DNA of 13,302 bases from an uncultured Oscillospiraceae bacterium (GTDB lineage: Bacteria > Bacillota > Clostridia > Oscillospirales > Acutalibacteraceae). The position numbers were made by a program, and so were the translations under genes. Positions 1 through 4,210 of the stretch are shown here, piece by piece. Numbering within the stretch: position 1 is the first letter of the stretch; each line of letters begins with the position of its first letter. Location: NCBI GenBank assembly GCA_905203795.1, contig CAJKXG010000009.1, positions 1 through 13,302 of the forward strand, read 5' to 3'. Under the pieces are notes generated by a model. The model searched no databases. It worked only from the letters and a program-made list of their open reading frames with translations, and was not told where the DNA came from.

Positions 1-1340
1 TAGTTCTCGAGATTCTCGCGGCGCGCACCCGGACGGGCGGCGGACACCGCGTCGGCGGCTTGCACCAAGCACGCGACCACGGTTTGCGGCTCGACGTCGC
101 CGTGGTGCGCTTGGATCGCGTGGATCACGGCGTCGTTTTCCTTATATTTGCGGGCAATATCCACGCCGATCTCGACATGCGAGCCTTCGATCTCGTGATC
201 GACCGCTTTGCCGATGTCATGCAGCAAGCCGGCGCGGCGGGCGATGACCGGATCGATGCCCAATTCGCTCGCCATGATGCCGGACAGGAACGCCACTTCC
301 ATCGAATGGTTGAGCACGTTCTGCCCGTAGCTGGTGCGGTAACGCAGACGACCGAGCAGCCGCATGATCTCGGGATGGATACCGTGCAGACCGGTCTCCA
401 GCACCGCGCGTTCGCCCTCGGACTTGATGGTGGCTTCCACCTCGCGGCGCGCCTTTTCCACCATTTCCTCGATGCGGGCGGGATGGATGCGACCGTCCGA
501 AATCAGCCGTTCCAGCGCGATGCGCGCGATCTCGCGGCGCACCGGATCGAAGCCGGACAGCGTGATCGCTTCCGGTGTGTCGTCGATGATCAGATCGACG
601 CCGGTCAGCGTTTCGATGGCGCGGATGTTGCGCCCTTCGCGACCGATGATGCGTCCTTTCATTTCGTCGTTGGGCAACGGCACGACCGACACGGTCGTCT
701 CCGTGACCTGATCCGCCGCCACGCGTTGGATGGCGTGGGAGATCAGATTGCGGGCGCGCGCGTCCGCTTCATCCTTGAGCTGCGTCTCAAATTCGGAGAG
801 CTTCAACGCTTTTTCATGCGTCAGCTCTGCCTCCAGATTGTTCAGCAAGTACTCCTTGGCCTGCTCGGCAGTGAAGCCGGAAATGCGTTCCAGCATTTCA
901 AACTGCCCTTTTTTGAGACTTTCGACATCCGCCAGACGCGCCTCGATATCCTTTTGACGCTTGGCGATGGTCTCTTCCTTTTTCTCGTAATTCTCGATTT
1001 TACGATCGAGGGTTTCTTCCTTTTGCTGCAAGCGGCGCTCCTGACGGGTGATGTCGTTGCGGCGCTCCTTCAGCTCGCGATCCGCTTCGTTGCGCAGACG
1101 ATGGATCTCATCCTTGGCTTCCAGCAACGATTCCTTTTTTTTGGAATCAGCGGCAGCCTTCGCATCCTTGATGATGCGTTCCGCTTCCTGTTCGGCAGAA
1201 CCGATTGCGGCTTCCGCAATCTTCCGCCGGTGTTCGATACCTTTTTTGAATGCGATCAATCCGGCGATCACACCGCCGACGGCAAGCCCGCCGACACACA
1301 TCAAAACGGCAATAATAATAGAAACCTGCACTTGTGCCAT
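1..1340 (-). CDS. rny: Ribonuclease Y (5' part; 3' end lies beyond the left edge)
   Basis: RNase Y is the membrane-anchored endoribonuclease that starts mRNA decay in many Firmicutes. The frame starts at the ATG at 1340, behind CAGGAGGTGT, and is open to the window edge (446 codons; Bacillus RNase Y is about 520 residues, so roughly 70 are missing). Visible in order: an N-terminal membrane helix (about residues 4-30), a long charged coiled coil (about 30-200), a KH RNA-binding domain with the GRIIGREGR loop at 229-237, and the HD phosphohydrolase domain with the metal-binding His-Asp pair in LLHDIGKA at 374-375. The last residues read [14 protein letters not shown], as expected for this family, so the frame is intact to the edge. 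The gene has its own strong promoter and an unusually long leader, described separately. Identity is very secure from the KH-HD architecture. Confidence 0.97.
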
Positions 1341-1618
1341 ACACCTCCTGAAAATAGTTAGACATAAAACCAATCGGAGGGGCACCGATACAAACCCGAC
1401 GCGGGTGGAAAATCAGCTTATATTTATGTCCGAAAAACAGCCAAAGCTGCCCGGTATAAAAAGCGGCAAACCCTGCCGCAACAGCCAAAGAGAATTGTAT
1501 CGGTACACCTCATACACCGAAAATGCCCGATCGCGGTTATGTACCGAAACCGACCATCTGAATATCATCATCACCAAAAACGGTAAAACCAATTTTCGGC
1601 ACGATATACCCAACGTAT
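1341..1618 (-). promoter_or_regulatory. Long structured 5' leader of rny
   Basis: Between the predicted transcription start (about 1612) and the rny start codon lie about 270 nt with no convincing gene. Read as RNA on the minus strand it holds: segment S1 (TCGGTACA, + positions 1540-1547); segment S2 (1495-1507); a terminator-like hairpin (1456-1479); segment S3 (1384-1393); and the ribosome binding site (about 1342-1349). S2 can pair with S1 over 8 bp, or with S3 over 10 bp (ACCGATACAA with TTGTATCGGT), but not both fully, because both use positions 1500-1504. Two direct repeats are also present: AACAGCCAAAG at 1436-1446 and 1480-1490, flanking the hairpin, and TAAAACCAAT at 1365-1374 and 1584-1593. 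I read this as a candidate cis-regulatory RNA. Its function is inferred, not recognised as a known family. Confidence 0.55.
1456..1479 (-). terminator. Terminator-like hairpin inside the rny leader (candidate attenuator)
   Basis: On the minus strand the sequence is GCGGCA, a 5-nt loop GGGTT, TGCCGC, then TTTTTAT: a perfect 6-bp GC-rich stem followed directly by a U-run, as in intrinsic terminators. It lies about 130 nt after the predicted start of transcription and about 120 nt before the rny ATG, so it could stop transcription before the gene. An 11-bp direct repeat flanks it. Confidence 0.5.
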
Positions 1619-1647
1619 ATTGTACACATTTTACACGGCTGTGTCAA
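1619..1647 (-). promoter_or_regulatory. Housekeeping sigma-factor promoter of rny
   Basis: On the minus strand the -35 box TTGACA (1642-1647) and the -10 box TACAAT (1619-1624) are separated by exactly 17 bp. The -35 box is a perfect consensus match and the -10 box has one mismatch. Transcription should start near 1612. It lies 60 bp downstream of the mltG stop codon, so rny need not depend on mltG transcription; no clear terminator is visible between them. Confidence 0.85.
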
Positions 1648-1709
1648 GGGGGTGTCGGTATTTTTATACAAATTGAGTAGAATTTTTGCAGAATGCCGTT
1701 TTTATACGC

Positions 1710-2705
1710 TCATCCGTACATGCCGATACCGTGTTCGCGGCAGACGGCTTCGTGTTCGGCATAGGTTTCGGAGTAATAGGTAATGCCGGTTTTGAAATCG
1801 AAAGCAAAGAAATAGCAATTGGCGATTTCCGCTTCGTCGGACGGCTGCCACGCCGCATTCAGCGCCGCCAGACCGGGATTGGCGATGGCGCCGACGGGCA
1901 GTCCGCGGCAGACATACGTGTCGTAGGCGCCCTCGTCGCACGTGATGCCCGCTGCCGCCAGTTCGCGCAGATAGGCGTAGCTGGCGTCGCATTGCAGGGA
2001 CGGAAACTCTGCCGGATGTTCCAGCCGATTTTGCAGGACGCGCGCCACGCGTTTCATATCGGCGACGTTGCCGACCTCCCGCTGTACGATAGAAGCGAAT
2101 ATGACCAGTTCGTCCAGCGAACGGTTGCCCAGTTGTTCGCGCAGCGCGGCGGTGCGGTAATCGAAATTGTCGAGAAACCGCCGCAGGGCCGACTCGCCGG
2201 AGCAGTCGCGGTAGAATTCATAGGTGTCGGGAAACAAGTAGCCCTCCAGGCGAAACGCGCGTCCCGCGGCGTCCGGCAGATCGGCGGCAAACGCGTAGTC
2301 GGAGATATCGGCGGTCTGCACCGCCTGATAAAAGGCGTCGGCGGTGCACACACCCCGATCCTCCAGCAACGCCGCGATGCGGGGAACACTGTATCCCTCA
2401 GGAATGGTCACGCGCACCGTGTTGGCGATCGGCGGTGCGGGGAATACGCTCAGCTTGCCGACGCTGTATTGCAAAATCAGACGGGCGTCGGAGCTGTCGA
2501 TGCTGCCGCTGCCGTCTGTATCCGCCGCTTCGGTTTTCGCCGTGGACAAGGCGAGCTTGCCCACAGAGGCTTGCAGCACGATGCGGGCATCACTGCTGTC
2601 GATGCCGCCGTCGCCGTTAACATCGCCGATGCGTGCCGCCGACACGGGCATCCCCATCAGCAATCCTGCCGCCAGCACCAATCCGAGTCCCCGTTTCCAC
2701 CGCAT
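1710..2705 (-). CDS. mltG: MltG/YceG-type endolytic murein transglycosylase with N-terminal dockerin repeats
   Basis: MltG cleaves nascent glycan strands of peptidoglycan and so ends their polymerisation. I start at the ATG at 2705 because GGAGG precedes it and a typical signal peptide follows (MRWKRG, hydrophobic core, AxA-like VSA-A cleavage site near residue 23-24). A longer in-frame start at 2768 would lie inside the -35 box. The mature 331-residue protein begins with two dockerin type I repeats (about 27-51 and 61-85). Each has a calcium loop of the DxNxDGxxDxxD type followed by an [RL]-x-x-LQ helix. The YceG domain follows (about 95-325), with EGYLFPDTYEF at 154-164, ASIVQRE at 204-210 whose E210 fits the catalytic glutamate, and GLPVGAIANPG at 268-278. 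MltG proteins are normally single-pass membrane proteins; a cleavable signal plus dockerin is odd. The catalytic family is secure; surface tethering through a cohesin is inferred. Confidence 0.9.
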   Translation of the reverse strand: MRWKRGLGLVLAAGLLMGMPVSAARIGDVNGDGGIDSSDARIVLQASVGKLALSTAKTEAADTDGSGSIDSSDARLILQYSVGKLSVFPAPPIANTVRVTIPEGYSVPRIAALLEDRGVCTADAFYQAVQTADISDYAFAADLPDAAGRAFRLEGYLFPDTYEFYRDCSGESALRRFLDNFDYRTAALREQLGNRSLDELVIFASIVQREVGNVADMKRVARVLQNRLEHPAEFPSLQCDASYAYLRELAAAGITCDEGAYDTYVCRGLPVGAIANPGLAALNAAWQPSDEAEIANCYFFAFDFKTGITYYSETYAEHEAVCREHGIGMYG

Positions 2706-2739
2706 ACTGCATCCTCCGTTTGCGCAAGATTTTGCTATC

Positions 2740-2768
2740 AGCATACTCCAAAACGCCTCTTTCGTCAA
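2740..2768 (-). promoter_or_regulatory. Promoter of the dockerin-MltG gene
   Basis: On the minus strand TTGACG (2763-2768) and TATGCT (2740-2745) are 17 bp apart, about 35 bp upstream of the chosen ATG at 2705. The position of this promoter supports the short start of the coding region. Confidence 0.6.
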
Positions 2769-2805
2769 GAATTTGCGAAAATTCTTCCGTATAGCGGGCA
2801 GCGGG

Positions 2806-2834
2806 TTGACTTTTACGCATCAAACGGGTACAAT
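2806..2834 (+). promoter_or_regulatory. Promoter of the proC-rsmD-coaD operon
   Basis: TTGACT (2806-2811) and TACAAT (2829-2834) are separated by 17 bp, with an AT-rich stretch after. The predicted start of transcription near 2841 gives a short leader of about 32 nt before proC. It is divergent from the mltG promoter, with 37 bp between the two -35 boxes. Confidence 0.8.
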
Positions 2835-2872
2835 AATCCTATATATGCTTTATAAAAGGGACTGTCGAGACT

Positions 2873-3667
2873 ATGAAAGTGGGATTTATCGGAGCGGGCA
2901 ACATGGCGGGCGCGATCGTGCGCGGCATGGTGTCCGGCGGATTTCGCGGAAGCGATATTGTGATCTACGATGTGGACAACGCCAAGCAAATGGCGCTGTT
3001 TGAGGAATGCGGCGTGTGTCCTGCCGGCTCGGCGGCGGAGGTTGTGTCGCAGGTGGATGCGGTGGTATTTGCCGTCAAGCCGCAGGTGTTTCCGTCGGTG
3101 CTGTCCCCGTTGGCGGCGACGCTGCAATCCTACCGTCCGCTGATCATTTCCATTGCGGCAGGGAAAACCATCGCGTCGATCGAGGACTTGATCGGCGTGG
3201 GGCTACCGGTCGTGCGCGTGATGCCCAACATCAATGCCAAGGTCGGCGAAGCGATGTCGGCGTTCTGCGGCAACGCGCAGGTGGGGGACGCGCACCGCGA
3301 CATGGTGCGCACGATCCTGGGCGCGGTCGGCGAGGTCATGGAACTGGAGGAAAAGCTGTTTTCCGCTTTTTCGACGCTGGCGGGCTGCTCGCCCGCGTTT
3401 GCACTGCTGTATATCGACGCGCTGGCGGAAGCGGGCGTGCGCTACGGCATCCCGAAGGCGTTGTCACTGAAGATCGTATCGCAGACGGTGCTGGGTACGG
3501 CGCGCTTGCTGCAGGAAAGCGGCGAGCATCCGCGCGCGCTGATGGATCAGGTGTGTTCGCCTGCGGGCACGACGATCGAAGGCGTGGCGGCGTTGCAGCA
3601 GGGCGGCTTTGAAACGGCAATTTTGGAGGCGGCGCGCGCCAGCTATGAGCGCGACAAACAATTATAA
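2873..3667 (+). CDS. proC: Pyrroline-5-carboxylate reductase
   Basis: Catalyses the last step of proline synthesis: NAD(P)H-dependent reduction of 1-pyrroline-5-carboxylate to L-proline in the cytoplasm. The 264-residue product has the usual length. The N-terminal Rossmann fold shows GFIGAGNMA at 4-12, and VKPQ is at 68-71. The family signature DQVCSPAGTTIEGVAAL at 225-241 and the preceding helical dimerisation region (AGCSPAFALLYIDALAEAG, 170-188) are clear. The segment RVMPNINAKVG (115-125) carries NINA where many ProC proteins have NTPA. The ATG at 2873 follows a weak AAAGGG about 12 nt upstream. It is the first gene of the operon; rsmD follows after 9 nt. Functional linkage to rsmD and coaD is not obvious, so this is probably a housekeeping grouping. 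Confidence 0.95.
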   Translation: MKVGFIGAGNMAGAIVRGMVSGGFRGSDIVIYDVDNAKQMALFEECGVCPAGSAAEVVSQVDAVVFAVKPQVFPSVLSPLAATLQSYRPLIISIAAGKTIASIEDLIGVGLPVVRVMPNINAKVGEAMSAFCGNAQVGDAHRDMVRTILGAVGEVMELEEKLFSAFSTLAGCSPAFALLYIDALAEAGVRYGIPKALSLKIVSQTVLGTARLLQESGEHPRALMDQVCSPAGTTIEGVAALQQGGFETAILEAARASYERDKQL

Positions 3668-3676
3668 GGAGTTACT

Positions 3677-4210
3677 ATGAAAGTGATTACAGGCACCCAT
3701 CGCGGACGGGTGCTGCAAACGCTGGAAGGCGAGGAAACGCGTCCCACCGCCCAACGGGTGAAGGAGGGGCTGTTCAGCGCCATCCAATTTGAAATCGAAG
3801 GGCGGCAGGTGCTGGATCTGTTTGCCGGTTCGGGTCAGCTCGGCATCGAAGCGCTCAGCCGCGGAGCGGCGGGCTGTTTGTTTATCGACCGCAATCCCGA
3901 TGCGGCGGCAATCGTGCGTTCCAATCTGGTGGCATTGGGGTTGACGGCGAACACGCGGGTGGTGTGTCAGGATTCGCTGGCCTATCTGGCGCACGCGAAA
4001 GAGCCGTTTGACTTGGTATTTCTCGATCCGCCGTACGCGGCGGGACTGCTCGAGCCTGCGCTGACGGCGGTCGCACCGCTGGTGCGCGAGGGCGGTGTGA
4101 TCGTATGCGAGAGCGAGTCGGATACGCCGCTGCCGGAGCAGGTGGGCGGTGCGTCGCTGTATCGCCGGTATCGGTACGGGCGCGTGACCGTGCGCATTTA
4201 TCGTGTGTAA
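3677..4210 (+). CDS. rsmD: 16S rRNA (guanine966-N2)-methyltransferase RsmD
   Basis: RsmD methylates N2 of G966 of 16S rRNA during 30S subunit assembly, using S-adenosylmethionine. The 177-residue protein is of normal length. It shows the N-terminal RsmD motif RPTAQRVKEGLF (22-33), the SAM-binding motif I VLDLFAGSGQLGIEALSRGA (45-64), and the catalytic motif IV LDPPY (116-120) typical of N2-guanine methyltransferases. The ATG at 3677 has a good AAGGAG seven bases upstream. The start of coaD lies 13 nt after the rsmD stop; rsmD-coaD adjacency is a widespread arrangement in Firmicutes and supports both calls. Confidence 0.95.
   Translation: MKVITGTHRGRVLQTLEGEETRPTAQRVKEGLFSAIQFEIEGRQVLDLFAGSGQLGIEALSRGAAGCLFIDRNPDAAAIVRSNLVALGLTANTRVVCQDSLAYLAHAKEPFDLVFLDPPYAAGLLEPALTAVAPLVREGGVIVCESESDTPLPEQVGGASLYRRYRYGRVTVRIYRV

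Follow-up and report, generated by a model that had tools for sequence, protein, structure and literature searches.

RNase Y initiates mRNA decay in many bacteria and determines global mRNA turnover in many Gram-positives. It cleaves A+U-rich single strands adjoining structures, and its level must stay within limits. In Bacillus subtilis RNase Y represses its own mRNA via cuts in the 164-nt 5' UTR and the early reading frame (PMC10303841). The Shine-Dalgarno sequence (SD) of B. subtilis rny is very strong and can sit in a strong structure, which has counterparts in close relatives and extends to codon 13 (PMC10303841). The strongest cuts were located within the first 50 nt, and a long rny fusion without the 5' UTR retained part of the control (PMC10303841). 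Mutations that weakened the structure over the SD had no significant effect on expression and made the control only slightly weaker (PMC10303841). The positions of the cuts, the control without the UTR and the structure mutants argue against a simple transfer of this mechanism to the leader analysed here. The link to RNase Y self-control made by the original prediction for this leader is plausible; what does not hold is its description as an unproven parallel, since such control is established in B. subtilis (PMC10303841).

The window, i.e. the whole stretch of 13,302 nt that we analysed, stems from an uncultured Oscillospiraceae bacterium and carries rny at its edge (Table 1). The rny product contains the domains RNase_Y_N, KH_1 and HD. 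A near-perfect promoter and a leader of about 270 nt had been predicted; the promoter indeed matches the consensus at 11 of 12 positions, being the best among five promoter-like sites in 1000-4000, and the start inferred from it yields a leader of about 280 nt. Judged from its sequence, the gene has its own sigma-A promoter and a long 5' UTR, as described for the autoregulated rny of B. subtilis. Translation probably starts at the GTG 1331-1329 rather than at the ATG 1340-1338, which is merely 3 nt past GGAGG, because the GTG is in frame and its 12-nt spacing is near that of the relatives L003 and L122 with an apparent GTG start about 13 nt past GGAGG. With boundaries picked after inspection, the leader fold 1613-1330 had a z of -3.1 with equal stability in 1 of 200 shuffles, and the 5' hairpin 1613-1559 reached -18.4 compared to -9.1 ± 2.2 kcal/mol with none of 500 shuffles as stable. 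Leader-encoded peptides were considered and rejected, as the frames 1613-1413 and 1488-1147 by eye lacked a well-placed SD; in frame 1488-1147 some 17 nt separate the TTG and the GAGGUG of S2.

A further gene of the window (1710-2705, minus strand) encodes a lytic transglycosylase of the MltG/YceG-like type (PF02618, 166.7 bits) whose N terminus carries a dockerin type I domain (PF00404, 38 bits with a cut-off of 22.9). A cell-wall enzyme joined to a module of the cellulosome type is an unusual combination.

Table 1. Features of rny and its leader, in coordinates of the window
Feature	Position	Strand	Description
rny, RNase Y	3..1331	-	TIGR03319 606 bits, cut-off 454; runs off the window
rny start codon, probable	1329..1331	-	GTG; 12-nt spacer after GGAGG; alternative ATG 1338-1340
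Shine-Dalgarno core	1344..1348	-	GGAGG; from sequence
Masking hairpin S3-SD	1326..1393	-	four helix segments; fold test of 1394-1322
S3, anti-SD strand	1374..1393	-	partners: S2, or SD/start
A+U-rich stretch between S2 and S3	1407..1429	-	candidate RNase Y cutting site
Terminator-like hairpin	1456..1479	-	GCGGCA-GGGUU-UGCCGC then UUUUUAU; stem-loop 1479-1463; inside S2-S3
S2	1495..1511	-	GAGGUGUACCGAUACAA; ribosome-binding-site look-alike; pairs with S3 (anti-anti-SD)
S1	1540..1547	-	8-bp pairing with S2 possible; weakly supported
5' hairpin of leader	1559..1613	-	starts UUGGGUAUAUC, common to relatives L005 and L006
rny mRNA leader	1332..1613	-	about 280 nt; start near 1612 inferred from promoter
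sigma-A/70-type promoter of rny	1619..1647	-	TTGACA (1647-1642), 17 nt, TACAAT (1624-1619); 11/12 consensus

The prediction had centred on three segments, S1, S2 and S3, of which S2 would pair with either of the others. The 8 contiguous pairs of S1-S2 were found as predicted (1540-1547 with 1507-1500), and both helices use 1500-1504 and exclude each other. The 10 bp proposed for S2-S3 are present as well, as part of a longer helix that pairs at 16 of 17 positions (1495-1511 with 1393-1377) and is interrupted by one U-C mismatch at 1507/1381. The S2-S3 duplex had an energy of -24.9 kcal/mol, and the domain 1512-1359, its boundaries again picked after inspection, had a z of -3.1 with 3 of 500 shuffles equally stable. 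S1-S2 had a predicted pair probability of just 0.14-0.2, and no comparative support was found for it.

Overlooked by the prediction was a further pairing of S3, namely with the SD and start region. CCUCC and GUGCC of S3 are complementary to GGAGG and to the GGCAC just 3' of GGAGG, and the resulting hairpin extends to the GTG codon (1393-1388/1326-1331, 1385-1381/1334-1338, 1380-1376/1344-1348 and 1375-1374/1350-1351). The segment 1394-1322 folded with -24.2 compared to -15.3 ± 2.8 kcal/mol, and 2 of 500 shuffles were as stable. In a fixed frame that covered 45 nt upstream and 28 nt downstream of the first base of GGAGG, the window had a z of -2.8 with 1 of 200 shuffles and an SD unpaired probability of 0.0; among the 111 sequences assayed in this way, including the window, z was below -2 in 10. 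Because the locus had been picked for S1, S2 and S3 and not for S3-SD, the latter is a largely independent observation. S3 can act as an anti-SD strand that pairs with the SD, and S2 is a mutually exclusive second partner of that strand. The competition supported by the data is that of S2-S3 with S3-SD and not that of S1-S2 with S2-S3, and the predicted pairings are a better fit to a translational switch than to an attenuator.

Folding of 1613-1311 yielded -97.1 kcal/mol for the masked form, which is the free minimum, -95.3 kcal/mol with S2-S3 and -96.2 kcal/mol with S1-S2, where the mask is also retained. The difference of less than 2 kcal/mol between the masked and the S2-S3 form is inside the error of the method. 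With S2-S3 formed, the start was covered by a hairpin of just -5.1 kcal/mol. When S2 was removed (5' end at 1494 or further in), the unpaired probability of GGAGG was 0.001; with S2 present (5' end at 1512) it was 0.158. At predicted equilibrium of the full leader it was 0.03, i.e. the SD was mostly masked, so an open state of the intact leader would need kinetic trapping or a factor. Prefix folds of RNA that stopped at 1376 or at 1350, with S3 complete, had S2-S3 in the minimum; RNA that reached 1320, past the start, had the masked fold. Transcription yields S3 ahead of the start, so the open form would probably appear first.

These data are consistent with a cis-acting RNA with two folds that serves feedback control by RNase Y through masking of the rny start, a reading whose chances we hold to be evenly balanced. 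The S2-S3 fold is predicted to arise first in transcription; as long as S2 holds S3, the start would be left nearly open, with a weak hairpin of -5 kcal/mol. In the alternative fold S3 would turn forward onto the SD and the start codons and hide both (-24 kcal/mol). As our hypothesis for the trigger, RNase Y in excess would cut the A+U-rich region between S2 and S3, where 1428-1429, 1419-1422 and 1407-1412 were predicted to be unpaired with S2-S3 forced, or would bind there, and so separate the strands. The freed S3 would then mask the start, and the rny message would be silenced and decay. A cut between the two strands would switch the leader off permanently. We infer that both folds form in the cell and alter translation, with RNase Y as the trigger.

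For comparison, rny loci were collected from a genome scan (the best 80 among the matches listed), from searches around the genomes G005 and G001, which overlapped strongly and each recovered rny from 111 of 118 genomes, and from added loci. Rows were dropped for too little upstream DNA (L038 and L106), for genomes already included (seven loci), and where leaders were too short for the test or had no GGAGG near the start. In a set of 112 upstream regions of related rny genes, a promoter matching at least 10 of 12 positions lay within 600 nt in 111 regions compared to 5.2 expected from shuffles, and at least 11 of 12 were matched in 98 of 112 compared to 0.8 expected; the identical leaders L032 and L097 are counted twice in these numbers where both qualified. 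The median leader length of the 112 regions was 202 nt. The window and its relatives show no conservation of leader sequence, and the window leader had no DNA match in 296 related genomes at an E of 1e-3, an empty answer that shows little.

By eye the rny leaders fall into several classes of diverse sequence, with many leaders fitting none. Class A comprises 11 loci (L001, L002, L004, L114, L119-L121; L003, L111, L113, L117) that by eye have a hairpin with a GUGGCG loop within a short closing helix, followed by two GC-rich hairpins, the last of which is terminator-like (CCCC then a U run) before rny, making class A a better attenuator candidate than the window leader. Class B has 10 loci by pattern with a GGGNNNNACGCACCC hairpin, and class C has 19 loci with the near-invariant blocks GACUC..GCCGUUA and UAACGGCACC..AAGGAGGUGUCA. 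The class B block was found in 5 of 394 genomes, 4 of them upstream of rny, and the class C block in 3 of 394, all 3 upstream of rny; these patterns were derived from rny leaders and required an exact match, and therefore say little on frequency. Among L001-L121 several leader classes are clade-specific and conserved in sequence, with no Rfam match in the loci tested; classes B and C may represent new RNA families. Class D has 6 loci with the shared 5' motif GGCATATAAGTGG. Further types are a Ruminococcus flavefaciens type and class E (L027, L046, L105, L107, L108 and L110) with a GAACnCGC hairpin loop, which in some members may by eye form a pseudoknot with a GCGGUU just 5' of the SD. In the close relatives L005, L006, L081, L085 and L122 a hexanucleotide [AU]CGGUG, judged by eye, recurs in hairpin loops towards the 5' end of the leader or beside such loops. 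By eye the window leader shares only its first 11 nt with L005 and L006, and only a U run plus AUACC after a hairpin with some class A leaders; homology to either was rejected.

The layout of the window recurred in class D. Its members L152-L157 (genomes G310, G182, G007, G312, G311 and G065) were picked by the 5' motif before rny and not by pairing. The 13-base motif occurred in 28 of 398 genomes in all, and a reversed-pattern control gave matches of similar order; most matches beyond class D are probably due to chance. A long-range helix with its 3' strand a little upstream of the SD was present in 6/6 members, and the 5' strands are SD-like (GGGGUGC, GGGGCGC, GGGGCAC and GGAGCGC). At helix positions 3, 5, 6 and 8 both sides changed while pairing was kept: G-C or A-U at position 3, C-G, U-G or U-A at position 5 (bulged in L156 and L157), G-U, G-C or A-U at position 6, and A-U or G-C at position 8 (unpaired in L152 and L153). 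These changes were read from explicit duplex tables, as in MAFFT alignments the 3' strand was shifted from one row to the next. The 3' strand of the helix can also fold onto the SD in all six leaders with -10.6 to -20.5 kcal/mol. In the fixed frame the unpaired probability of the class D SD was 0.0 to 0.21 and z was -0.9 to -2.3, significant at 0.05 in 2 of 6. Both pairings were also present in L086. In class C the strands of the key helix are almost invariant and provide covariation evidence neither way.

Pairing of the 45 nt before the SD with the distal leader was then compared with shuffles. The value of the window was reached in 11 of 2000 shuffles, those of the class D leaders in 0, 0, 2, 5, 6 and 20 of 300. 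Among 99 relatives, 18 had a p ≤ 0.05 and 7 a p ≤ 0.01 (L007 and L087 enter this long-range test twice, under other names). Local masking exceeded shuffles (p ≤ 0.05) in 0/11 class A, 0/10 class B, 3/19 class C and 2/6 class D leaders. In a joint test of long-range and local pairing both p were ≤ 0.1 in 9 of 111 rny leaders with about 1 expected, and both were ≤ 0.05 in 5 of 111; the window belongs to the 9, as do 4 of the 6 leaders of class D. The nearest relatives by RNase Y sequence, L122, L082 and L111, did not pass. None of 28 control genes passed, a number too small for a contrast on its own. Where both qualified, L032 and L097 count twice in the long-range, local-masking and joint tests; they count once in the swaps between 102 leaders and the dinucleotide shuffles below.

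Swapping of partners between 102 leaders showed that the own segments fit best, with a sum of -1913.3 compared to -1754.3 ± 34.2 for permuted partners (0 of 20,000 permutations, and again 0 of 20,000 when corrected for G+C). The distal leader of the window ranked 1 of 102 for the pre-SD segment of the window. Class D alone was matched in 97 and class D plus the window in 8 of 20,000 permutations; the counts were 9,609 for class C, 15,836 for class A and 2,034 of 20,000 for the other 64 leaders. On the S3-SD side there was no partner specificity (2,896 of 20,000); because the SD is near-constant this is to be expected, and the result gives no support either. Since partners from one genome share composition, we also used dinucleotide-shuffled copies of the same leaders. 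Here z was -5.9 for all 102 leaders (0/300), -7.3 for class D (0/300), -3.6 for the window (1/300) and -4.5 for class C (0/300), whereas class A had +0.6 (218/300) and the other 64 leaders had -1.4 (26/300). These results do not bear out the concern that the swap signal reflects nothing but shared composition. Thus the pairing signal is confined to classes C and D and the window and is not a property of every rny leader. Our computations show the competing helices with their stabilities, the repeated layout in relatives and an arrangement of promoter plus leader that recurs.

The leader might instead be chiefly a substrate of RNase Y, whose A+U-rich single strands are cut to start decay and whose helices are incidental. 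We regard this as unlikely, albeit as the most serious of the other explanations. It has the advantage of a mechanism demonstrated in B. subtilis (PMC10303841), and would agree with related rny leaders being long yet diverse in sequence. However, if just unpaired A+U were selected, one would expect neither the double changes in the class D helices nor a pre-SD pairing that, in classes C and D and the window, exceeds what composition gives.

The attenuator reading of S1, S2 and S3 in the original prediction did not withstand analysis. Its terminator-like hairpin is there, enclosed by S2-S3 as predicted (1479-1463 followed by UUUUUAU, -9.4 kcal/mol), and is plausible as an intrinsic terminator; moreover, in close relatives the leaders of class A finish with a GC-rich hairpin and a U run before rny. 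In transcription attenuation this hairpin and its U run would stop transcription under control of an upstream antiterminator. Yet S2-S3 encloses the terminator arms with no overlap and is not an antiterminator helix that excludes the terminator. Because S3 (1377-1393) is transcribed later than the hairpin, which is complete by then, S2-S3 cannot govern termination. The only candidate antiterminator seen by eye spans 5 bp and would join UGCCG close to the 5' end to CGGCA in the terminator arm, and terminator-like sites in 1000-4000 were not enriched with 2 found compared to 3.9 expected. Attenuation appears improbable to us.

Equally improbable is an ordinary long leader without regulatory use, in which the pairings arose by chance. 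The length of the S2-S3 helix alone is unremarkable, as 39 of 500 shuffles had, somewhere in the leader, a helix of 17 nt in which 16 or more positions paired, and a first shuffle test on duplex energies, with L032 and L097 counted twice where both qualified, was not significant (joint 76/1000). The tests in fixed windows, the shuffle and swap tests over 102 leaders and the recurrence in six relatives speak against chance.

Least probable is a riboswitch that would sense a small molecule or ion through its 5' domains and use S2, S3 and the SD as its expression platform: the architecture is that of translational riboswitches in general and some rny leader classes such as class C have sequence-conserved blocks, but no Rfam class was found in the leaders tested, the window leader is not conserved in sequence among relatives, and rny is not a metabolic gene. 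The prediction that no known riboswitch class is present agrees with our Rfam search, which had 0 matches at gathering score in the whole window; the best match below threshold in 1250-1700 was PinT with 20.6 bits compared to a gathering score of 60 (E 0.072). Rfam searches of 20 + 10 rny loci, including all six class D genomes, had no match within an rny leader; the only two matches, a tRNA (L017) and a glycine riboswitch (L063), lay outside of it. In the titles and abstract openings searched, the literature on rny leaders had no description of a comparable leader, which is a weak kind of absence.

Taken together we favor the view that S3 is shared between S2 and the SD in a feedback switch of rny. 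The wider proposition, i.e. a translational switch triggered by RNase Y cuts together with unrelated, fast-evolving rny leader classes across the order that keep control and have no Rfam match in those tested, is doubtful. The strong promoters and long leaders at 111 of 112 rny regions, in several unrelated classes, make self-control testable across gut Firmicutes.

To our knowledge, no SD-masking competition is part of the 5' UTR of E. coli rne. In translational riboswitches and ribosomal-protein leaders SD, anti-SD and anti-anti-SD compete for exposure of the ribosome-binding site. The window leader is like these in that three segments compete for the ribosome-binding site, and unlike them in that no known aptamer, ligand or protein site was recognised in it. 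With E. coli RNase E and rne it has in common a decay-initiating RNase with its own long structured leader (cited in PMC10303841). The rne system differs in that binding to a stem-loop without cutting is thought to speed cuts elsewhere (cited in PMC10303841). B. subtilis rny is closer, being the same gene with a sigma-A promoter, a long 5' UTR and a strong structure over the SD into the reading frame (PMC10303841). Its control is by cleavage, and a long-range strand that competes for the mask is not described in the passages we refer to, unlike in the window (PMC10303841). If true, our reading of the window leader would describe a feedback device that joins RNA cutting to the start of translation and is thrown by RNase Y itself, and it would differ from both the cleavage control of B. 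subtilis and the binding-type control of RNase E.
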